64,000 bases of DNA from Aequorivita sp. H23M31 (GTDB taxonomy: Bacteria > Bacteroidota > Bacteroidia > Flavobacteriales > Flavobacteriaceae): NCBI RefSeq assembly GCF_004022485.1, contig NZ_CP034951.1:1922001-1986000 (forward strand), read 5' to 3'. Under the pieces are notes generated by a model. It was not told the origin of the DNA. It worked only from the letters and a program-made list of their open reading frames with translations, and ran no database searches. Shown piece after piece: positions 1 to 9,428 of this stretch. The translations under genes and the position numbers were made by a program. Within the stretch, counting starts at the first letter, position 1. Each line of letters begins with the position of its first letter.

Positions 1-1348
1 TTAAAGTTCCTGCATTTTTATACCTGAACGGTAGTTGTCCACTTACACCTTTCAATTGCCGCACAGCCTCCACACTTAAATAATCCAGATATCCAACACT
101 GGAAGGATTCCCCGAATTGTTATAGACCAAATCTACCTTAACAGTTTCTCCACTTGCCAAAATATTGTTTACCGATTCCTTTGTGCTCAATAGTACATAT
201 CTGGATAGGGCGGTAAAGTTTATTGGATCTAAACTAGTTCCATTGGCGGAAACCGTCATAGAAGTAGCACTTTCCGAAGCGGCGGCTACTTTTAGTTTCA
301 TCCGTATGGGTTCTTCTGAAATTATATTTGGAAAAGAAAACTCGTAATGTTGTTCCCTATTTATATCAAATCGGTTTCCATACCACGTACGACCCATTTT
401 TGTAGGGCTCTCTTCATCCTTTTCATGAAATTGATAATCATCAAACCTAGAGATAACATGATCGGCAGAGCCAGAAGGTTCAACCATATCTATAACTCTT
501 TTGCCTGGGCCGCCCACAACAGTAACATAATAAAAGGATTCATCGGCATAAGGATTCAAATTTGAGTCGTTATCCAGCACATATCCTTCCGTACTGGTAC
601 CGTAGAATAAAATATAGTCGTTGGAATCAAATCTTCCATCCTCTTCCCCAATTACTTGGATGGAGTTTTCCGGAAGATCAAAAATCGTATTTCTCGAATT
701 AAGTAGTGGCAGGGTCTGTCCGCCATTTCCGTAAATCTTAAGATTTCGAGGATTAATTTCGTCGGTATTCATTCCCAAACTCTTTAGGAATGACTTATCA
801 ATTTTATGTATCCCTGACTTTTCCACTTTAAACTTAAACCACTTCCCAGAAGCAAGTACCGAATTGGTTCGTGAAGGTGGCGCATTTCGTCTTTGCGCTC
901 CATAATTATAATCTACCGAAAAAGACATCACTTTTTGATAAGAACCATTCACCCGTATAATAGGAGAAATGGAAAAAATAGTATAGAGAATATCCCGTGC
1001 CTTCGTAGTTGCAATACTGTAAGATAACTTATTCGTCACAAGCTCCTTATTAATTCTATTTAACTCGGCAGTGGAAAGTGGACCGTACTTTACGTTTGAT
1101 ACACGAACAGAGTTTTTATCGGCAAAATTAGAATCCACCCATTGTGTAGTATAATTGGGCGCACCATAATCCAGGTCCAGCTCCAATACATCTTCTTCTA
1201 CCGCACCAGAATTGGCCCCAGAATTCGGCTGATAGTTATTGGATTCCCTTGCGCTGGAATCTCCCCAGTTAATGGTAATTGTTTTAGACTGTGCTCCTAC
1301 CACAATTGGCAAGACCAAGAAAAGCAAATGGATTAATATTTTTCTCAT
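1..1348 (-). CDS. porU: Type IX secretion system sortase PorU, N-terminal part (gene runs off the left edge)
   Basis: An open frame of 449 codons runs from an ATG at 1348 to the window edge without a stop. It starts with a signal peptide (MRKILIHLLFLVLPIVVGAQ) and continues with a beta-rich sequence typical of the N-terminal region of PorU, including the segment GKWFKFKVEKSGIHKI and, further on, ILFYGTSTEGYVLD. PorU is the outer-membrane C25-family (gingipain-like) cysteine peptidase that removes the C-terminal signal of T9SS cargo and attaches the cargo to the cell surface. The catalytic His/Cys domain is expected beyond the left edge, so it cannot be checked here. A divergent gldJ next door is the arrangement I know from Flavobacterium johnsoniae, which supports the call. 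It has its own promoter at 1366-1398. Confidence 0.9.
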   Translation of the reverse strand, partial: MRKILIHLLFLVLPIVVGAQSKTITINWGDSSARESNNYQPNSGANSGAVEEDVLELDLDYGAPNYTTQWVDSNFADKNSVRVSNVKYGPLSTAELNRINKELVTNKLSYSIATTKARDILYTIFSISPIIRVNGSYQKVMSFSVDYNYGAQRRNAPPSRTNSVLASGKWFKFKVEKSGIHKIDKSFLKSLGMNTDEINPRNLKIYGNGGQTLPLLNSRNTIFDLPENSIQVIGEEDGRFDSNDYILFYGTSTEGYVLDNDSNLNPYADESFYYVTVVGGPGKRVIDMVEPSGSADHVISRFDDYQFHEKDEESPTKMGRTWYGNRFDINREQHYEFSFPNIISEEPIRMKLKVAAASESATSMTVSANGTSLDPINFTALSRYVLLSTKESVNNILASGETVKVDLVYNNSGNPSSVGYLDYLSVEAVRQLKGVSGQLPFRYKNAGTL

Positions 1349-3456: not shown

Positions 3457-4737
3457 ATGGATATTGAAACTCTTTACCGTCATTTTCTACAAAGCAGTGG
3501 AGTGTGCACCGACACCCGCCACATTCAAGAAAACTGCATATTCTTCGCACTTGCAGGGGAAAACTTCAATGGCAACCTATTTGCGCAAGAAGCATTGGAT
3601 ACTGGTGCGAGGATGGTAGTGGTGGACCAAGAAGAATTTCATAAAAATACTGGCGAAACATTTCTTGTGAACAACACGCTTCTTGCTCTACAGGAGCTGG
3701 CTCAATATCACCGGATGCAATTAAAAACAAAAATAATTGCTCTAACCGGCAGCAACGGCAAAACAACAACCAAGGAACTGATAAATGCCGTACTTTCCCA
3801 AAAGTTCCAAACTGTAGCTACAAAGGGAAATCTAAACAATCATATTGGAGTGCCCCTGACACTACTTTCTATTCCAGTAGATACCGAATTTGGAATCGTT
3901 GAAATGGGCGCCAATCATTTGGGAGAAATTGAAATGTTAAGCAACATTACCCAACCTGATTTTGGATATATCACCAATTTCGGGAAGGCGCATCTCGAGG
4001 GTTTTGGAAGCCTTGAAGGTGTGATAAAAGGAAAATCGGAACTCTATGTATTTCTTCAGCAGCAGAACAAAATAGCATTCGTAAATGCCAATGATCCAAA
4101 ACAATTAGAAAGTTCCAAAGAAAATAAGCGAGTTACATTTGGCACACCCGAGAGTGATTTTAATATTGATCTTCTTGATTCGCACAGTAACCTATTGCTG
4201 AATTACAGAGGTTTAAACATTCAAAGCAACTTGGTAGGAGCATACAATTTTATGAATCTGTCTGCTGCGATTGCCATTGGGGCATATTTTGGAGTTTCTC
4301 CAGAAAAGATTAAGGAAGGAATAGAAAGTTATATCCCAACAAATAATCGGTCTCAACTTATTAAGCAGGACACCAATACGATTCTTATGGATGCCTATAA
4401 TGCGAATCCAAGCAGCATGATGGCAGCTCTCAAAAATTTCAGGCAAGCAGAGGGAAACAATAAAATATTATTTCTAGGCGATATGTTTGAGCTTGGATCA
4501 GATGCTCTGGCAGAACACCAAAATATTGTGGATTTCCTTTCCGAGAATATTTTCGGGAAAGTTCTACTCGTTGGGGAAAATTTCTTTAAAACCAAGGTTG
4601 AAGCCTCCCACATAAAGAAATTCAGGACGTTTGATGACTTAAAAAATGAGATTCAAACCCACACCCCATCCTTTTCATTTATATTAATAAAAGCTTCCAG
4701 AGGAATGGCATTAGAGAGGATTTTGGAGGTTTTATAA
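3457..4737 (+). CDS. murF: UDP-N-acetylmuramoyl-tripeptide--D-alanyl-D-alanine ligase MurF
   Basis: This cytoplasmic Mur ligase of 426 residues adds D-Ala-D-Ala to UDP-MurNAc-tripeptide with ATP. The ATP loop GSNGKTTTK is at residues 98-106. NLNNHIGVPLTLLS and the metal-binding EMGANHLGEIE follow, with the C-terminal domain signature LMDAYNANPSSM further on. The frame is open from a TTG at 3448, but the ATG at 3457 aligns with the family start (MDIETLY). The N-terminal domain is short, as is usual in Bacteroidetes MurF. It follows gldJ after a terminator and so has its own promoter, which I could not pin down. Confidence 0.95.
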   Translation: MDIETLYRHFLQSSGVCTDTRHIQENCIFFALAGENFNGNLFAQEALDTGARMVVVDQEEFHKNTGETFLVNNTLLALQELAQYHRMQLKTKIIALTGSNGKTTTKELINAVLSQKFQTVATKGNLNNHIGVPLTLLSIPVDTEFGIVEMGANHLGEIEMLSNITQPDFGYITNFGKAHLEGFGSLEGVIKGKSELYVFLQQQNKIAFVNANDPKQLESSKENKRVTFGTPESDFNIDLLDSHSNLLLNYRGLNIQSNLVGAYNFMNLSAAIAIGAYFGVSPEKIKEGIESYIPTNNRSQLIKQDTNTILMDAYNANPSSMMAALKNFRQAEGNNKILFLGDMFELGSDALAEHQNIVDFLSENIFGKVLLVGENFFKTKVEASHIKKFRTFDDLKNEIQTHTPSFSFILIKASRGMALERILEVL

Positions 4738-4788
4738 GGAAATTTGCAGAAATAAATCACAGAGAATTACTAGCTTAACAAATAGTAG

Positions 4789-4863
4789 TGGGCCATGTTG
4801 GATTCGAACCAACGACTTCCACGTTGTCGACGTGACACTCTAAACCAACTGAGTTAATGGCCC
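4789..4863 (-). tRNA. tRNA-Val(GAC)
   Basis: The 75-base cloverleaf has acceptor GGGCCAT/ATGGCCC, D-stem ACTC/GAGT, anticodon stem TCACG/CGTGG, and T-arm GTTGG-TTCGAAT-CCAAC. The anticodon loop reads TCGACAA, giving anticodon GAC (Val). The base before the anticodon (position 33) is C instead of the near-universal U. CCA is not encoded: after the discriminator A the minus strand reads CTA. Confidence 0.85.
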
Positions 4864-4922
4864 ATTAATTTCAGGCACGAAAATACGAATTCCCAGAGTC
4901 AAAACAAGGCTTCGCCAATAAG

Positions 4923-5894
4923 TTATTTCTCGAATTTTTTGATGGGTTTCTTTTTAATCATTCCTCCCTTGGCATCTTTAACGGAAGTCATTATCATAAA
5001 TGCCTGCTTATCTATTTTATTAACTTCCGATTTTAGCTTGCTCATTTCCAAACGAGTAATAACTGTGTAAACCACATCCATCGGTCGCCTTGACTCCCCT
5101 TCCTTTATAAAACCATTTTCAGCTTTAAAAAGAGTACAACCACGTCCCATTCTATCTACAATGGCGGCACGAATCTCCTCACTATTTACGGAAATAATGG
5201 TAACTCCCATAAATTCCTCTATACCATCAATAATAAAGTCGACCGTTTTAGAGGCGGAAAAATAGGTCATAATCGCATAAAGCGCCACTTCGGTAGATAG
5301 GAAATATGCGGCGGTAAGGAAGATAACGATATTAAAAATAAGGATAATATTTCCCACTGTCATTACTGTGTTCCTGCTTATGTAGATTGCGAGAACTTCT
5401 GTTCCATCTAGGATCGCACCACCCCTAATAGCAAGACCGATCCCCAATCCCAAAAACAAACCTCCAAAGGCAGCAATCAAGATTTTATCATCAGTTATTT
5501 GCGGAAATGGAATGTAAGCTACAGCCAAGGATAACAGCACAATACTGATTACGCTTTTTATTGCAAATCGTTTCCCTATAGAAAAAAAAGCCAAAATTAT
5601 AAAAGGAAGGTTTATGATAACTAGGAAAAAGGACAAGGAAATATTCGTCAAAGTATTCATCATCAACGAAATACCTGTTACACCCCCATCAATAAAGGAA
5701 CTTGGCATTAAAAATCCCCGTAGCCCAAATGATGCAGAAAGTACACCTAGCAAGAGATAGACAAAGTCGGAAAGCTCATGGGCAATTTCAAGTTCCCAGT
5801 TTTTAACGCTTCTTACAAAAGCCTCCTTATAAGATCGATCATTCCTATTGATTCCAAAATAACTTAATAGATTTCTTTTTATATTTTCAAACAT
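4923..5894 (-). CDS. YitT family membrane protein (DUF2179 C-terminal domain)
   Basis: This 323-residue protein has a basic N-terminus and then five to six hydrophobic segments between about residues 45 and 225 (for example GVLSASFGLRGFLMP, and a glycine-rich FGGLFLGLGIGLAIRGGAILDGTEV). A soluble C-terminal domain of about 80 residues begins near FIIDGIEEFMGVTIISVNSEEI. This is the YitT_membrane plus DUF2179 architecture, and the function of the family is not established. A TAAATTTG box (5922-5915 on the minus strand) sits about 20 bases upstream of the ATG. The gene stands alone between two tRNA-Val genes. Confidence 0.85.
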   Translation of the reverse strand: MFENIKRNLLSYFGINRNDRSYKEAFVRSVKNWELEIAHELSDFVYLLLGVLSASFGLRGFLMPSSFIDGGVTGISLMMNTLTNISLSFFLVIINLPFIILAFFSIGKRFAIKSVISIVLLSLAVAYIPFPQITDDKILIAAFGGLFLGLGIGLAIRGGAILDGTEVLAIYISRNTVMTVGNIILIFNIVIFLTAAYFLSTEVALYAIMTYFSASKTVDFIIDGIEEFMGVTIISVNSEEIRAAIVDRMGRGCTLFKAENGFIKEGESRRPMDVVYTVITRLEMSKLKSEVNKIDKQAFMIMTSVKDAKGGMIKKKPIKKFEK

Positions 5895-6001
5895 CAGTAA
5901 AATGGCTTATTCTACAAATTTAGGGAAAGCAGTTAAGCTATTTTCAGAATTGCCCCTGTTTGAGAAAATTTTAAATTTTCAGAATTAAATCAAATAAATG
6001 T

Positions 6002-6031
6002 TTGGTGAAATTAAAAACTAAGTTATATTTG
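6002..6031 (+). promoter_or_regulatory. Promoter of tRNA-Val(TAC)
   Basis: TTG at 6002-6004 and TATATTTG at 6024-6031 are separated by 19 bases, a good match to the flavobacterial housekeeping promoter. Transcription would begin about ten bases before the tRNA 5' end at 6048. None of the altered tRNA copies downstream has this promoter. Confidence 0.75.
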
Positions 6032-6047
6032 CATCCGCTAACACAAA

Positions 6048-6125
6048 GGGCGATTAGCTCAGCTGGTTCAGAGCACCTCGTTTACACCGAGGGGGTCGGG
6101 GGTTCGAACCCCTCATCGCCCACCA
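6048..6125 (+). tRNA. tRNA-Val(TAC), intact
   Basis: This is a normal cloverleaf: acceptor GGGCGAT/ATCGCCC, D-stem GCTC/GAGC, anticodon stem CCTCG/CGAGG with loop TTTACAC (anticodon TAC, U33 present), and T-arm ending TTCGAACCCCTC. The discriminator A at 6122 is followed by an encoded CCA. It is the only tRNA in the 6-8 kb array with a full seven-pair acceptor stem and a valine anticodon. It is the likely parent of the five altered copies downstream. Confidence 0.95.
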
Positions 6126-6130
6126 CCTTT

Positions 6131-6160
6131 AAAAACCGAAGTTTCTGCTTCGGTTTTTTT
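6131..6160 (+). terminator. Terminator of tRNA-Val, unit 1
   Basis: AACCGAAG and CTTCGGTT pair around the loop TTTCTG, and the T-run extends to 6160. It lies eight bases after the discriminator base. The GIY-YIG start codon follows only three bases after the T-run. Confidence 0.9.
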
Positions 6161-6163
6161 ATT

Positions 6164-6412
6164 ATGTATTATCTCTATATTTTATATTCCGAACATCTTG
6201 ATCGTTACTACATCGGTTCAACGGAAGATATCTCCGTGCGCCTTAAGGAACATCTTTGGAACCATAAAGGTTTTACGGCAAAAGCAAAGGACTGGGAAAT
6301 CAGATATTCCGAAAATTTTCTAACTAGATCTGAAGCGCTTGCGCGGGAACAACAGATAAAAAAATGGAAGAGCCGGAAATTGATCGAGAAATTAATTGCC
6401 TCACGCGATTAG
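6164..6412 (+). CDS. GIY-YIG nuclease domain protein, copy 1
   Basis: This 82-residue single-domain protein belongs to the YhbQ-like GIY-YIG family. The GIY-type strand is Y5-I6-L7 and the YIG strand is Y16-I17-G18. R26 and H30 lie in SVRLKEH, and the expected metal-binding glutamate is E62 in AREQQIKKWKS. All key residues are present, so a Mg-dependent DNA nuclease is plausible, although the substrate is unknown. The start codon abuts the tRNA terminator, and no separate promoter is visible. The last residues (ASRD) and the TAG stop at 6410-6412 are encoded inside the 5' end of the next tRNA-like sequence. Variable sites here read C/A/A (the cgCctt, catAaag and aaAgca positions), as in copy 5. 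Confidence 0.85.
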   Translation: MYYLYILYSEHLDRYYIGSTEDISVRLKEHLWNHKGFTAKAKDWEIRYSENFLTRSEALAREQQIKKWKSRKLIEKLIASRD

Positions 6413-6479
6413 CTCAACTGGTCCAGAGCATCCCGAACTTGCTTCGGGAGGGTCGGGGGTTCGAACCCCTCATCGCCCA
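6403..6479 (+). pseudogene. tRNA-Val-like sequence 2
   Basis: It is 77 bases long. The D-arm, variable region, T-arm and 3' acceptor strand match the intact tRNA-Val(TAC). The 5' acceptor strand begins ACGCGAT, which leaves only five of seven pairs. The anticodon arm is replaced by TCCCGAACTTGCTTCGGGA, a hairpin with no valine anticodon and C where U33 should be. An encoded CCA follows. It is still tRNA-shaped but unlikely to be charged with valine. Confidence 0.85.
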
Positions 6480-6487
6480 CCACTTTT

Positions 6488-6518
6488 AAAAAACCGAAGT
6501 TTCTGCTTCGGTTTTTTT
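6488..6518 (+). terminator. Hairpin terminator, unit 2
   Basis: The same ACCGAAG/CTTCGGT hairpin and T-run as in unit 1, between tRNA-like 2 and nuclease copy 2. Confidence 0.85.
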
Positions 6519-6521
6519 ATT

Positions 6522-6770
6522 ATGTATTATCTCTATATTTTATATTCCGAACATCTTGATCGTTACTACATCGGTTCAACGGAAGATATCTCCGTGCGTC
6601 TTAAGGAACATCTTTGGAACCATGAAGGTTTTACGGCAAGAGCAAAGGACTGGGAAATCAGATATTCCGAAAATTTTCTAACTAGATCTGAAGCGCTTGC
6701 GCGGGAACAACAGATAAAAAAATGGAAGAGCCGGAAATTGATCGAGAAATTAATTGCCTCACGCCATTAG
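6522..6770 (+). CDS. GIY-YIG nuclease domain protein, copy 2
   Basis: 82 residues. It differs from copy 1 at K35E, K40R and the last residue (D82H), plus a silent C-to-T change. The catalytic pattern (Y5, Y16-I17-G18, R26, H30, E62) is intact. The D82H change comes from a G-to-C change that also alters the acceptor stem of tRNA-like 3 (ACGCCAT), because the gene end and the tRNA start overlap. An in-frame upstream extension through the tRNA-like sequence exists but is not credible as protein. Confidence 0.8.
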   Translation: MYYLYILYSEHLDRYYIGSTEDISVRLKEHLWNHEGFTARAKDWEIRYSENFLTRSEALAREQQIKKWKSRKLIEKLIASRH

Positions 6771-6837
6771 CTCAACTGGTCCAGAGCATCCCGAACTTGC
6801 TTCGGGAGGGTCGGGGGTTCGAACCCCTCATCGCCCA
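6761..6837 (+). pseudogene. tRNA-Val-like sequence 3
   Basis: It is identical to tRNA-like 2 except that the 5' acceptor strand reads ACGCCAT, a third mismatch in that stem. The CCCGAACTTGCTTCGGG palindrome occupies the anticodon arm. The 3' half is unchanged and ends in CCA. Confidence 0.85.
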
Positions 6838-6845
6838 CCACCTTT

Positions 6846-6875
6846 AAAAACCGAAGTTTCTGCTTCGGTTTTTTT
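6846..6875 (+). terminator. Hairpin terminator, unit 3
   Basis: ACCGAAG/CTTCGGT hairpin with T-run, as in unit 1. Confidence 0.85.
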
Positions 6876-6878
6876 ATT

Positions 6879-7127
6879 ATGTATTATCTCTATATTTTAT
6901 ATTCCGAACATCTTGATCGTTACTACATCGGTTCAACGGAAGATATCTCCGTGCGTCTTAAGGAACATCTTTGGAACCATGAAGGTTTTACGGCAAGAGC
7001 AAAGGACTGGGAAATCAGATATTCCGAAAATTTTCTAACTAGATCTGAAGCGCTTGCGCGGGAACAACAGATAAAAAAATGGAAGAGCCGGAAATTGATC
7101 GAGAAATTAATTGCCTCACGCGATTAG
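6879..7127 (+). CDS. GIY-YIG nuclease domain protein, copy 3
   Basis: 82 residues. It shares the T/G/G haplotype of copy 2 (E35, R40) but keeps the terminal D82. All catalytic-pattern residues are present. The stop codon TAG at 7125-7127 forms bases 8-10 of tRNA-like 4. Confidence 0.8.
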   Translation: MYYLYILYSEHLDRYYIGSTEDISVRLKEHLWNHEGFTARAKDWEIRYSENFLTRSEALAREQQIKKWKSRKLIEKLIASRD

Positions 7128-7194
7128 CTCAACTGGTCCAGAGCATCCCGAACTTGCTTCGGGAGGGTCGGGGGTTCGAACCCCTCATCGCCCA
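7118..7194 (+). pseudogene. tRNA-Val-like sequence 4
   Basis: It is the same as tRNA-like 2: acceptor 5' strand ACGCGAT, anticodon arm replaced by the CCCGAACTTGCTTCGGG hairpin, T-arm and CCA intact. Confidence 0.85.
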
Positions 7195-7203
7195 CCACTT
7201 TTT

Positions 7204-7235
7204 AAAAACCGAAGTTTCTGCTTCGGTTTTTTTTT
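7204..7235 (+). terminator. Hairpin terminator, unit 4
   Basis: ACCGAAG/CTTCGGT hairpin with a nine-T run. Confidence 0.85.
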
Positions 7236-7238
7236 ATT

Positions 7239-7487
7239 ATGTACTATATCTACATTTTATATTCCGAACATCTTGATCGTTACTACACCGGTTCAACGGA
7301 AGATATCTCCGTGCGTCTTAAGGAACATCTTTGGAACCATAAAGGTTTTACGGCAAGAGCAAAGGACTGGGAAATCAGATATTCCGAAAATTTTCTAACT
7401 AGATCTGAAGCGCTTGCGCGGGAACAACAGATAAAAAAATGGAAGAGCCGGAAATTGATCGAGAAATTAATTGCCTCACGCGATTAG
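7239..7487 (+). CDS. GIY-YIG nuclease domain protein, copy 4
   Basis: 82 residues. It differs from copy 1 at L4I, I17T and K40R, with several silent changes in the first 25 bases that are partly shared with the truncated sixth copy. The YIG motif becomes YTG. That form is also found in E. coli YhbQ (LYTGIT), so activity is not necessarily lost. R26, H30 and E62 are retained. Confidence 0.8.
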   Translation: MYYIYILYSEHLDRYYTGSTEDISVRLKEHLWNHKGFTARAKDWEIRYSENFLTRSEALAREQQIKKWKSRKLIEKLIASRD

Positions 7488-7715
7488 CTCAACTGGTCCA
7501 GAGCATCCCGAAGCAAGTTCGGGACAGGTTCCCGAAGCAAGTTCGGGACAGGTTCCCGAAGCAAGTTCGGGACAGGTTCCCGAAGCAAGTTCGGGACAGG
7601 TTCCCGAAGCAAGTTCGGGACAGGTTCCCGAAGCAAGTTCGGGACAAGTTCCCGAAGCAAGTTCGGGACAAGTCGAACCTCCCGAAGCAAGTTCGGGACA
7701 GGCACTCATCGCCCA
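7478..7715 (+). pseudogene. tRNA-Val-like sequence 5, expanded by palindromes
   Basis: It has the 5' acceptor strand and D-arm of the other copies, then eight copies of an 18-base palindrome in place of the anticodon arm and T-arm. It ends with CTCATCGCCCACCA, the 3' acceptor end and CCA. The palindrome is in the opposite orientation (CCCGAAGCAAGTTCGGGA) to that in copies 2-4. Confidence 0.85.
7507..7698 (+). repeat. Eight-copy palindromic repeat, 24-bp period
   Basis: CCCGAAGCAAGTTCGGGA occurs at 7507, 7531, 7555, 7579, 7603, 7627, 7651 and 7681. The first seven have a strict 24-base period, with 6-base spacers CAGGTT or CAAGTT. The eighth follows after 30 bases. Each unit can fold as a hairpin (CCCGAA/TTCGGG around GCAAG). 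The period is a multiple of three and the repeat contains no stop in several frames, which produces spurious repetitive ORFs on both strands. Confidence 0.95.
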
Positions 7716-7723
7716 CCACTTTT

Positions 7724-7754
7724 AAAAAACCGAAGTTTCTGCTTCCGTTTTTTT
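7724..7754 (+). terminator. Hairpin terminator, unit 5 (one stem mismatch)
   Basis: The same hairpin as unit 1, but the right arm reads CTTCCGT, so one stem pair is lost. The T-run is kept. Confidence 0.75.
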
Positions 7755-7757
7755 ATT

Positions 7758-8006
7758 ATGTATTATCTCTATATTTTATATTCCGAACATCTTGATCGTT
7801 ACTACATCGGTTCAACGGAAGATATCTCCGTGCGCCTTAAGGAACATCTTTGGAACCATAAAGGTTTTACGGCAAAAGCAAAGGACTGGGAAATCAGATA
7901 TTCCGAAAATTTCCGAACTAGATCTGAAGCGCTTGCGCGGGAACAACAGATAAAAAAATGGAAGAGCCGGAAATTGATCGAGAAATTAATTGCCTCACGC
8001 GATTAG
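7758..8006 (+). CDS. GIY-YIG nuclease domain protein, copy 5
   Basis: 82 residues. It carries the same C/A/A haplotype as copy 1 (K35, K40) and differs from it at L53R, caused by TTTCTAAC becoming TTCCGAAC. Y5, Y16-I17-G18, R26, H30 and E62 are intact. The stop codon lies inside tRNA-like 6. Confidence 0.8.
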   Translation: MYYLYILYSEHLDRYYIGSTEDISVRLKEHLWNHKGFTAKAKDWEIRYSENFRTRSEALAREQQIKKWKSRKLIEKLIASRD

Positions 8007-8060
8007 CTCAACTGGTCCAGAGCGTCCCGAAGCAAGTTCGGGACAGGCACTCATCGCCCA
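7997..8060 (+). pseudogene. tRNA-Val-like sequence 6, collapsed
   Basis: It is 64 bases long. The 5' acceptor strand and D-arm are kept. A single GTCCCGAA-GCAAG-TTCGGGAC hairpin replaces the anticodon arm, and the T-arm is gone. It ends in ACTCATCGCCCA plus CCA, the same right junction as tRNA-like 5. Confidence 0.8.
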
Positions 8061-8068
8061 CCACTTTT

Positions 8069-8101
8069 AAAAAAACCGAAGTTTCTGCTTCGGTTTTTTT
8101 T
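8069..8101 (+). terminator. Hairpin terminator, unit 6
   Basis: ACCGAAG/CTTCGGT hairpin with a T-run just before the truncated nuclease start. Confidence 0.8.
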
Positions 8102-8104
8102 ATT

Positions 8105-8126
8105 ATGTACTATCTCTACATTTTAT
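8105..8126 (+). pseudogene. GIY-YIG nuclease gene, truncated sixth copy
   Basis: The first 22 bases (MYYLYIL) match the other copies, most closely copy 4 (TGTACTA and TACATTTTAT). The sequence then changes abruptly to unrelated DNA at 8127. This marks the right end of the array. Confidence 0.8.
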
Positions 8127-8211
8127 TGCCCGAAAATCAAGCGGAACGAGAATTCCCTTCCTCTCCTACCAAAACTATGTTAACACCTAAATCAACTAGC
8201 CAGGTCATTTG

Positions 8212-8219
8212 TACTTTTG
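8212..8219 (+). promoter_or_regulatory. -7 box of the MFS exporter gene
   Basis: TACTTTTG matches TAnnTTTG and ends nine bases before the preferred ATG at 8229, so the transcript would have almost no leader. No -33 box is clear. Confidence 0.4.
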
Positions 8220-8228
8220 CTGGAATCT

Positions 8229-9428
8229 ATGAAAAACCAAAGTCGTTTTACCATTGTTTTTTCTCTCGGATTGCTATCGGCGTTGGGACCTTTTTCCATA
8301 GATCTTTACCTTCCTGGCTTTCCAGAAATTGCGCGCGATCTGCAGACTACTACAAGTAGCGTGGCGCTATCGTTATCCAGTTATTTTATTGGAGTAAGTA
8401 TTGGTCAGCTTATTTATGGCCCGTTAATGGATAGATTTGGACGTAAAATTCCCCTTTATACTGGTCTGCTGATTTATCTGGCTGCCTCTATTTTTATAGT
8501 ATTCGCAACATCTGTTGAATCTCTTATTGTGGTACGATTTATTCAGGCCTTGGGTGGATGTGCGGGGATGGTTGCTGCAAGAGCCTTGGTCAGGGATATT
8601 TTTCCAGTTTCGGAAAATGCTAAAGTGTTCAGTCTTTTGATGCTGGTAATAGCGGTCTCCCCTATTGTAGCTCCAACATTGGGAGGATATGCCACTGCAC
8701 ATTGGGGATGGCATTCCATTTTTATTATTCTCTCCATATTGGCATTTCTAAACTTTATCTTGGTCTTTTTTCTACTTCCCGCAGGAGCGCCTCCAGATTT
8801 AGAATTATCCCTAAAGCCTAAGTCAATTACAAGTAAGTTTTGGAAGGTTTTCAAAACTCCACAGTTTTACACTTATACTTTTGCCGGATCATTTGCAGCA
8901 AGTGGATTATACGTTTATATAGCCGGTTCGCCACATATTTTTATGGAACTTTACGAAGTTTCCGAAAAACAGTATGGCTGGATCTTCGGTATAATTGCAA
9001 TGGGATTGATTACCGCAAGTCAATTGAACACTTTATTATTAAGAAGATTTCGAAGTGAACAAATCGTAAAAGTCGCGCTATTGTTTCAGGTGTTAATCGG
9101 AATTATCTTTTTCCTTGCCGCACTATTTAATTTACTCGAACTGTATTCTACAATTGTTTTGGCATTTTTGTTTTTGAGTACCCAAGGGTTTGCATTTCCC
9201 AATACTTCGGCTCTTGCGCTTGCCCCTTTCGAAAAAAGTGCTGGAACAGCCTCTGCTTTAATGGGCGCTCTCCAATTGGGAATCGGTGCTGTAATGACCG
9301 CCTTGGTATCCTTATGGAGCAATGAAACACCACTTCCTATGACTCTTATGATGTTACTTTGTGCAAGTATAGGACTCGGGATTTTAATTTTTGGTAGCAA
9401 AAGAAATATAACTCTGGTTACCGAATAA
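8229..9428 (+). CDS. Bcr/CflA-type multidrug MFS transporter
   Basis: This inner-membrane protein of 399 residues has twelve hydrophobic segments. The major facilitator motif A, GPLMDRFGRKIPLY, follows helix 2. The N-terminus SALGPFSIDLYLPGFPEIARDL is typical of the Bcr/CflA drug:proton antiporter subfamily. The frame is open from a TTG at 8217, but the ATG at 8229 fits the family and the promoter box. It lies about 100 bases beyond the end of the tRNA/GIY-YIG array and is convergent with folC. The substrate cannot be inferred. Confidence 0.88.
   Translation: MKNQSRFTIVFSLGLLSALGPFSIDLYLPGFPEIARDLQTTTSSVALSLSSYFIGVSIGQLIYGPLMDRFGRKIPLYTGLLIYLAASIFIVFATSVESLIVVRFIQALGGCAGMVAARALVRDIFPVSENAKVFSLLMLVIAVSPIVAPTLGGYATAHWGWHSIFIILSILAFLNFILVFFLLPAGAPPDLELSLKPKSITSKFWKVFKTPQFYTYTFAGSFAASGLYVYIAGSPHIFMELYEVSEKQYGWIFGIIAMGLITASQLNTLLLRRFRSEQIVKVALLFQVLIGIIFFLAALFNLLELYSTIVLAFLFLSTQGFAFPNTSALALAPFEKSAGTASALMGALQLGIGAVMTALVSLWSNETPLPMTLMMLLCASIGLGILIFGSKRNITLVTE

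Follow-up and report, generated by a model that had tools for sequence, protein, structure and literature searches.

Behind the intact tRNA-Val(TAC) gene of Aequorivita sp. H23M31 lies a run of units that each pair a small GIY-YIG nuclease gene with an altered copy of that tRNA, which raises the question of what kind of element would multiply in this form. The DNA analyzed, hereafter the window, is a stretch of 64,000 nucleotides (contig NZ_CP034951.1, forward-strand positions 1,922,001 to 1,986,000) from a genome assembled as a single 3.68-Mb contig. We lean toward the view that the locus arose by tandem amplification of a minimal, homing-type element that lacks an integrase and appears to be specialized on the tRNA genes of Bacteroidota. 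In its standard, single-copy form, an intact tRNA gene is followed by a terminator, the GIY-YIG gene, and the tail of another tRNA copy that has a perfect palindrome in place of one arm; a further terminator usually comes last. In a mirror form, the broken copy lies 5' and the intact tRNA lies 3'.

The array spans 6048-8126 of the window, and all of its units lie 3' of the intact tRNA-Val(TAC) gene (6048..6125, plus strand; ARAGORN and Rfam, 66.6 bits). A preliminary description of the window had counted six head-to-tail units. The tandem arrangement stands, but the count becomes five complete units and one truncated unit. Each unit runs from a terminator hairpin through an 82-codon GIY-YIG open reading frame (ORF), whose ATG lies a few bases past the T run, to a tRNA-Val copy. 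Complete units measure 345-360 bp with the exception of one of 519 bp, and the starts of successive GIY-YIG genes are 358, 357, 360, 519, and 347 bp apart. Tandem Repeats Finder (TRF) reports a period of 357 with 4.1 copies and 97% matches over 6050-7512; a chance origin of the array is excluded because the units are long, 97% identical, and head to tail. The terminator-like hairpin and T run of unit 1 occupy 6131..6161 on the plus strand, so that 38 bp, terminator included, separate the tRNA ending from the ATG, and the terminator recurs on the same strand at 6488-6519, 6846-6876, 7204-7233, 7724-7755, and 8068-8099.

The five complete nuclease genes, all on the plus strand, lie at 6164..6412, 6522..6770, 6879..7127, 7239..7487, and 7758..8006. 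All five are open, as had been claimed, with 82 codons and a stop each, although the ORF listing gives the first two with longer TTG starts. A genome protein search with ORF 1 matched all five window proteins at 96-100% identity, and ORFs 1 and 5, the two scanned, match the GIY-YIG profile PF01541 at 58-60 bits. The sixth ORF retains its start only (8105..8126, plus strand), with homology lost after about seven codons. Within 6002-8216, the ORF listing holds no ORF longer than 136 residues, the other-frame ORFs there not having been profile-scanned; site-specific tyrosine and serine integrases exceed that length. The nuclease gene and the altered tRNA copy do multiply together without an integrase, as first described. 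An Rfam scan of window positions 4500-9000 matched only tRNAs, and we rejected a group I intron on that result and on a TIGR01453 score of 22.8 bits against a cut-off of 56.05.

The stop codon of each GIY-YIG ORF falls inside the tRNA copy that follows (..GCGATTAG). Copies 1 to 3 (6403..6482, 6761..6840, and 7118..7197, plus strand; Rfam for all three, ARAGORN for the first and third) score 31.6-37 bits, compared to a tRNA cut-off of 29. These parts had been described as decayed. Instead, a conserved palindrome stands in for a tRNA arm: the 17-nt anticodon arm CCTCGTTTACACCGAGG is exchanged exactly for the 19-nt palindrome TCCCGAACTTGCTTCGGGA in all three (6431..6449 on the plus strand, 6789-6807, and 7146-7164). 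In copy 4 (7478..7722, plus strand), palindromes overgrow the anticodon and T arms, and TRF reports a separate plus-strand array of 8.0 copies of 24 bp at 7506..7702, built on the palindrome TCCCGAAGCAAGTTCGGGACAGGT. Copy 5 (7997..8063, plus strand; palindrome at 8025-8043) has lost its T arm. The flipped palindrome TCCCGAAGCAAGTTCGGGA occurs eight times in unit 4 and once in unit 5. A functional second tRNA is judged unlikely, since the copies lack the native anticodon arm and their acceptor 5' strand is poorly conserved. Acceptor pairs form in 62 of 112 positions, G-U included, over 16 loci, in several of which a second T-arm palindrome upset the parsing; four further loci could not be parsed.

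Judged from its sequence, the encoded protein consists of a lone GIY-YIG domain that keeps its catalytic residues. Y5, Y16, G18, R26, and E62 are invariant and H30 is nearly so in 19 family proteins, and we take these residues to have the catalytic role known from GIY-YIG enzymes. In each of the five ORFs of such elements that were scanned (ORFs 1 and 5 of the window, L245, L009, and L042), PF01541 is the sole domain. The preliminary description had proposed comparing nonsynonymous with synonymous substitution rates (dN/dS), and the result shows a maintained protein: wherever a finite dS was obtained, dN/dS between species is 0.05-0.31, with most pairs close to saturation; for the three pairs whose dS is under 1.1, it is 0.27, 0.31, and 0.14. 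Within the window array, dN/dS is 0.24-0.76 with at most eight changes, too few to judge. The values between species show purifying selection on the protein. The structure model has a predicted local distance difference test (pLDDT) score of 91.7, and its closest folds are the UPF0213 protein BH0048 and Slx1, followed by the I-TevI and UvrC catalytic domains; no match in the fold search reached an E value of 0.001, the best being 0.0037. Sequence profiles give UPF0213 at 1.1e-9 and Slx1 at 8e-4.

Among 59 genomes, the window's included, 17 matched at 1e-10. In 14 of 18 inspected loci from these genomes, a tRNA, a terminator, and the ORF precede a partial tRNA that contains a CCCGA..TCGGG palindrome, usually with another terminator behind it, the upstream tRNA being itself incomplete in three of the 14 (L048, L054, and L055). 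In the other four, the intact tRNA lies downstream (L040 and L045), no copy was seen (L047), or the stretch missed the gene (L049). A contig scan with a Val/Arg-type alignment gave 232 confirmed relatives, of which the best 80, here called the named loci, cover only the Val/Arg-like branch. All 80 titles are Bacteroidota save one labeled Actinomyces, a 6.5-kb contig under the title of an Actinomyces viscosus metagenome-assembled genome (L150), which is probably mis-binned. All 80 named loci have a tRNA sequence no farther than 200 bp from the ORF (76 upstream, 45 upstream at full length), compared to 4 of 133 control stretches at least 1.3 kb away, with a tRNA library built from those same loci. 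In 60 of 79 loci, direct repeats that score at least 25 stand on both sides of the ORF, as against 5 of 79 in a mispaired control. The distal tRNA copy starts at tRNA position 43-48, just beyond the anticodon arm, in 27 of the 42 loci where it reaches the tRNA 3' end. One intact and one broken copy of a single tRNA, forming the direct repeats, enclose the ORF, whose stop codon is often supplied by the broken copy.

With a hidden Markov model of 19 family members, we extended the search to 296 Bacteroidota genomes that are at least 90% complete. The model matched 146 of them at 1e-12, with up to 16 matches in one; because at most 17 candidates were scored per genome, copy counts are lower bounds. 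A sample of 69 loci from 67 genomes was then drawn nonrandomly, with a bias to strong matches (29 best-scoring loci and 40 lower in the list). A same-strand tRNA predicted by ARAGORN lies within 320 bp in 58 of the 69. None of the 63 tRNAs within this distance is on the opposite strand, and their density is 1.04/kb versus 0.16/kb farther out. The sample uses 17 tRNA species, 20 of its loci carry at least two GIY-YIG genes, and ARAGORN makes odd calls (tRNA-Gln, tRNA-SeC, and "Stop") at such loci. The mirror form, with an intact tRNA downstream, is rarer than the standard form (8/69). In the six mirror loci inspected (L245, L258, L274, L278, L282, and L286), the palindrome occupies the D, anticodon, or T arm of the broken 5' copy and differs in sequence, e.g., CCTGCCGGCGAGGCAGG or CCCGCCCGAACGTACCGTCCGGTACGGGCGGG. 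The preliminary description was silent on the phylum-wide spread, the many tRNA species, and the mirror form, as it was on the recurrence of these palindromes at other genomic sites.

The arm that bears the palindrome may also indicate what the nuclease recognizes. At tRNA-Phe loci, a palindrome reading CCCCGA..TCGGGG occupies the T loop. The L040 protein, found at tRNA-Arg(CCT), clusters with four Phe-type proteins (Shimodaira-Hasegawa-like approximate likelihood ratio test [SH-aLRT], 98), and the T arms of tRNA-Arg(CCT) and tRNA-Phe both contain AGTTCGATTCTTGG. The shared protein group and T-arm sequence suggest that the nuclease target resides in the palindrome-bearing arm. At L040 itself, a T-arm piece with CCCCGATACTTCGGGG forms short tandem repeats behind the intact tRNA-Arg(CCT) (approximately 1140-1263, minus strand). 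The tRNA isotype tracks the protein tree: its mapping takes 16 changes versus a shuffled mean of 26.7, a value as low occurring in 0 of 200 shuffles; in this count L015 was mislabeled "Arg" from a weak match, four rows were unlabeled, and nine near-duplicate rows were left out. A strict scheme of one protein lineage per tRNA is rejected by those 16 changes. An association of protein subfamily with the side of the intact tRNA (p 0.0004) was not used, as several GG-tailed KSR-type proteins were misfiled.

The array has counterparts in its own genome. A protein search found 15 GIY-YIG places, five of them the tRNA-Val array. The others are a tandem pair behind tRNA-Arg(TCT), a second tandem pair at tRNA-Arg(TCG), three genes at tRNA-Met(CAT), and three places away from tRNAs (L011, L014 within a 630-residue frame, and L015). 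Palindromes occur in both the anticodon and D arms of both tRNA-Arg(TCT) copies and in the D arm of both tRNA-Arg(TCG) copies. One of the three tRNA-Met copies carries a whole anticodon-arm palindrome, and the other two carry its first half, interrupted by other DNA. The tRNA-Met(CAT) array (L012 and L013, G000:C1:2572100-2574900) is itself interrupted by about 1.8 kb that is insertion-sequence-like by appearance. A PF01541 scan lists 21 places, among them longer proteins and a stop-containing match under the cut-off; such a decayed GIY-YIG stretch, interrupted by a stop and below the Pfam cut-off, lies behind an intact tRNA-Arg(TCG) at G000:C1:1720895-1721071 (in L075). Eleven tRNA-Pro pieces at 86-bp spacing, with no ORF, lie 5' of an intact tRNA-Pro(TGG) and hold TCCCGATTTTGCATCGGGA in the anticodon arm (L007 300-1260, about G000:C1:1604242-1605202). 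This array is a gene-less satellite form.

Of the 78 named loci that could be tested, 53 have a palindrome of the form YCCCGN..NCGGGR, with a stem of at least six, no more than 125 nt past the stop and often in the context GAGCA-palindrome-GGGTC; the reversed control has none. Of 54 distinct palindromes, 52 have a Watson-Crick seventh stem pair, which the definition does not force and for which three pair types occur; the shuffled mean is 20.9, and the stem is real. Random decay of the tRNA copies is rejected on the empty reversed control and on this complementarity. Across the window's genome, TCCCGAN{3,20}TCGGGA has 80 forward matches, of which no fewer than 26 fall inside tRNA arrays, versus 3 in the reversed control. 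Among 19 regions fetched around non-array palindromes, four contain a tRNA gene and one is the RNase P RNA gene, within which two TCCCGA..TCGGGA palindromes lie (L064 208-551; Rfam RF00010). In L057, L058, L066, and L072, a GCCTG tail precedes TCCCGA, as in a repetitive extragenic palindromic (REP) family whose end is tagged. Some of the genome-wide palindromes are probably terminators. A second palindrome family surrounds the non-tRNA GIY-YIG gene of L015, which sits amid many copies of TGAGCTTGTCGAAG/CTTCGACAAGCTCA (1270-2300), and lone GIY-YIG genes are possibly linked to it. An intergenic region of L030 (780-1930) has tandem repeats of approximately 150-195 bp, with palindromes resembling GCCTGTCCCGAAC..TTCGGGAGG and low-complexity runs of AAATCCAAATCG.

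This distribution raises an alternative that we consider possible though doubtful, namely, that the system is guided by the palindromes. A structure-specific GIY-YIG nuclease would act on DNA hairpins as the REP-associated tyrosine transposase (RAYT, or TnpA-REP) acts on REP sequences, swapping tRNA arms for palindromes and spreading the palindromes, and the hairpin-forming arms of tRNAs would explain the preference for tRNA genes. Palindromes in the anticodon, T, or D arms of the copies agree with this, as do the excess of 80 over 3 genomic palindromes, some near tRNA genes and two inside RNase P RNA, the gene-less arrays of palindrome-bearing tRNA-Pro and tRNA-Arg(CCT) pieces, and UPF0213 and the structure-specific nuclease Slx1 as the nearest solved structures. 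GIY-YIG and palindrome counts are correlated across 28 congeners (Spearman 0.65, p 0.0002, with the array copies of the window's genome removed), and genomes occupied at tRNA-Val hold 23-71 palindromes versus 5-51 in empty ones (Mann-Whitney p 0.003). However, the correlation cannot be separated from kinship: the only four independent pairs gave a mean of 2.1-2.5 in the same direction and 0 opposite, which is not significant. G020 and G024 have 51 and 18 palindromes without a GIY-YIG match at 1e-12, mirror-form palindromes have other sequences, probable terminators are among the genomic palindromes, and the fold search stays short of its threshold. In its widest form, this alternative would be a GIY-YIG counterpart of REP/RAYT in Bacteroidota, in which tRNA-nested, hairpin-recognizing nucleases swap arms, seed palindromes even into RNase P RNA, and amplify in tandem both their own units and gene-less satellites of tRNA and palindrome, a picture we likewise rate as rather improbable.

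A homing-type element should leave occupied and empty sites among close relatives. The tRNA-Val(TAC) gene was matched in 27 of 28 genus genomes (the window's included), and by reading, the sites of the 28 genomes divide into 6 occupied (one of them, G021, cut by a contig end), 2 remnants, 18 empty, and 2 that could not be judged. In the remnants L164 and L166, from two congeners, only the first GIY-YIG codons are left behind tRNA-Val, and these are decayed elements. Congeners also carry single-unit forms at this tRNA. The search of related genomes advised in the preliminary description, run here within the genus, recovered empty, decayed, single, and multiple states. On a LysS tree with 25 labeled tips, from which G026 is absent and in which the bootstrap had not settled, occupancy changes five times with remnants scored as occupied, and well-supported branches force three changes of the empty label; a LysS tree with G026 and without remnants gives four changes over 24 tips. 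The proximal and distal terminators are both readable in three congeners. In G011, the distal terminator matches those of four empty sites with the same downstream gene (L168, L171, L172, and L174), as if the element had displaced the resident tRNA end. Such displacement is suggested by this one case.

Several observations weigh against a mobile, homing-type element. On the LysS tree with 25 labeled tips, occupancy is scattered much as shuffled labels would be (mean 6.3; as low in 81/500), and the scatter fits gain plus loss but would also suit loss alone. G011 is the only one of the three congeners with two different terminators, and at a fifth empty site with the same downstream gene (L170, from G020) the terminator resembles the proximal one of G011. 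In G025 and G026, the two terminators are near-identical, as plain duplication would give. The intact tRNA beside the element looks like the tRNA at empty sites, the other copy being the one altered by the palindrome, and the element would therefore require some means of avoiding self-cutting. A palindrome-preferring, structure-specific enzyme would explain the uncut neighboring tRNA, which is why the palindrome-guided alternative is retained. No palindrome by the above definition is found in 25 of the 78 testable named loci, and within 150 nt of the stop in the phylum sample, 40 of 69 lack one and 29 have it. The protein tree is poorly resolved, with 11 of 93 branches starred. At an E value of 1e-5, no relative was found among 72,556 plasmid records or 50,697 phage records, and we rejected phage or plasmid cargo on that basis. 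A viral-contig search gave one full-length relative (L156) and six other matches that are short. The L156 gene lies at the extreme edge of a 40.7-kb predicted provirus (1-330) and is followed by a palindrome-bearing Arg-type tRNA tail, although ARAGORN found no tRNA at the locus. L156 is probably host DNA at the provirus border.

Some of these points would also be expected if the array were passive, that is, if chance had once placed the gene behind a tRNA and its later history had consisted of unequal crossing-over, gene conversion, and vertical descent accompanied by loss. The long direct repeats, the near-identity of the window units, the matching terminators of G025 and G026, and an occupancy scatter that could be loss only are all compatible with such a history. 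We nevertheless find it unlikely, given that 17 tRNA species and both tRNA sides are used across the phylum, that the tRNA is on the same strand in 58 of 69 loci, and that a conserved self-complementary sequence replaces an arm. The grouping of the tRNA-Arg(CCT) protein with tRNA-Phe proteins, whose tRNAs have a T-arm sequence in common, and the dN/dS evidence for a maintained protein also speak against it.

Returning to the homing-type element, we infer its insertion, cleavage, and mobility from comparisons of sequence. The element would have entered a tRNA gene, its repeats regenerating one whole tRNA. Read-through from the tRNA promoter may make the protein, which would cut tRNA genes that lack the element so that break repair copies it in, in a homing-like manner. 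Units could then multiply by unequal exchange between the flanking direct repeats, as their anatomy suggests, perhaps assisted by cutting as reported for the phage nuclease SegB; that precedent makes the tandem-exchange step plausible but is no test of it. The palindrome might mark the recombination joint and perhaps also be a preferred, structure-recognized site of the nuclease, in which case it may be a nuclease substrate. A lone endonuclease ORF without transposase or integrase and a patchy occurrence with empty cognate sites, both of which are seen here, are features of homing genes. The locus had been framed as either a minimal selfish element or a recently amplified locus. The first is the best reading and the local amplification is real, and the two need not be opposed, as both can hold.

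The purifying selection could instead reflect a domesticated gene that is cotranscribed with the tRNA and serves the cell, for example by tuning tRNA dosage or by defense against tRNA cutting. SegB-driven tRNA amplification is reported to aid phage T6 against Septu (PMC13096335). Presence within one genus is patchy, with decayed copies and empty sites, and the window tRNA copies should not raise tRNA dosage because their anticodon arm is replaced; we regard a host function as very unlikely. Should the homing-type reading be true, a large share of Bacteroidota genomes would harbor one of the smallest nuclease-encoding DNA elements, which would occupy essential tRNA genes without destroying them and could be a source of tRNA-gene duplication and palindromic repeats. 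It would also explain the odd ARAGORN predictions, offer a bacterial system, amenable to experiment, that parallels the amplification of tRNAs by SegB, and provide a direct test case for whether a lone 82-residue GIY-YIG domain reads DNA structure or sequence.

We did not find the element described in the open-access literature, a scope that leaves out most subscription papers and preprints, but several known systems share parts of its organization. Islands and phages that integrate into tRNA genes likewise use the tRNA gene as their site, and their insert regenerates one tRNA end. The element differs in having no integrase-sized ORF, an insert of approximately 0.3 kb, a palindrome at the joint, and the use of more than one arm and of either side. 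Rickettsia palindromic elements are palindromes inserted in genes, a likeness by description, and we know of no GIY-YIG partner for them. In REP/RAYT systems, short palindromes spread genome-wide together with a hairpin-acting nuclease gene. Short genome-wide palindromes and a nuclease gene both occur here, the link between them being a correlation only, but the enzyme is a GIY-YIG protein (PF01541) rather than a Y1/HuH transposase, and the palindrome lies within tRNA copies. Slx1 is a eukaryotic repair nuclease with the partner Slx4; together with UPF0213 (1zg2 and 1ywl), it provides the nearest solved sequences and folds. For UPF0213, the available passages of PMC1564403 give no description of a tRNA-linked element. 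The element may be a variant of a free-standing homing-type nuclease gene, which its palindrome partner may make into something more. Among such genes, SegB of T-even phages is also a lone GIY-YIG gene that adjoins tRNA genes. In phage T6, SegB is reported to amplify a 718-bp unit of tRNA-Tyr and segB in tandem, with microhomology between the tRNA 5' end and the segB 3' end (PMC13096335). Unlike SegB, the element here is chromosomal in bacteria and encodes a single domain of 82 residues, its tRNA is duplicated around the gene, the ORF stops within the tRNA copy, and a palindrome takes the place of an arm in the broken copy.

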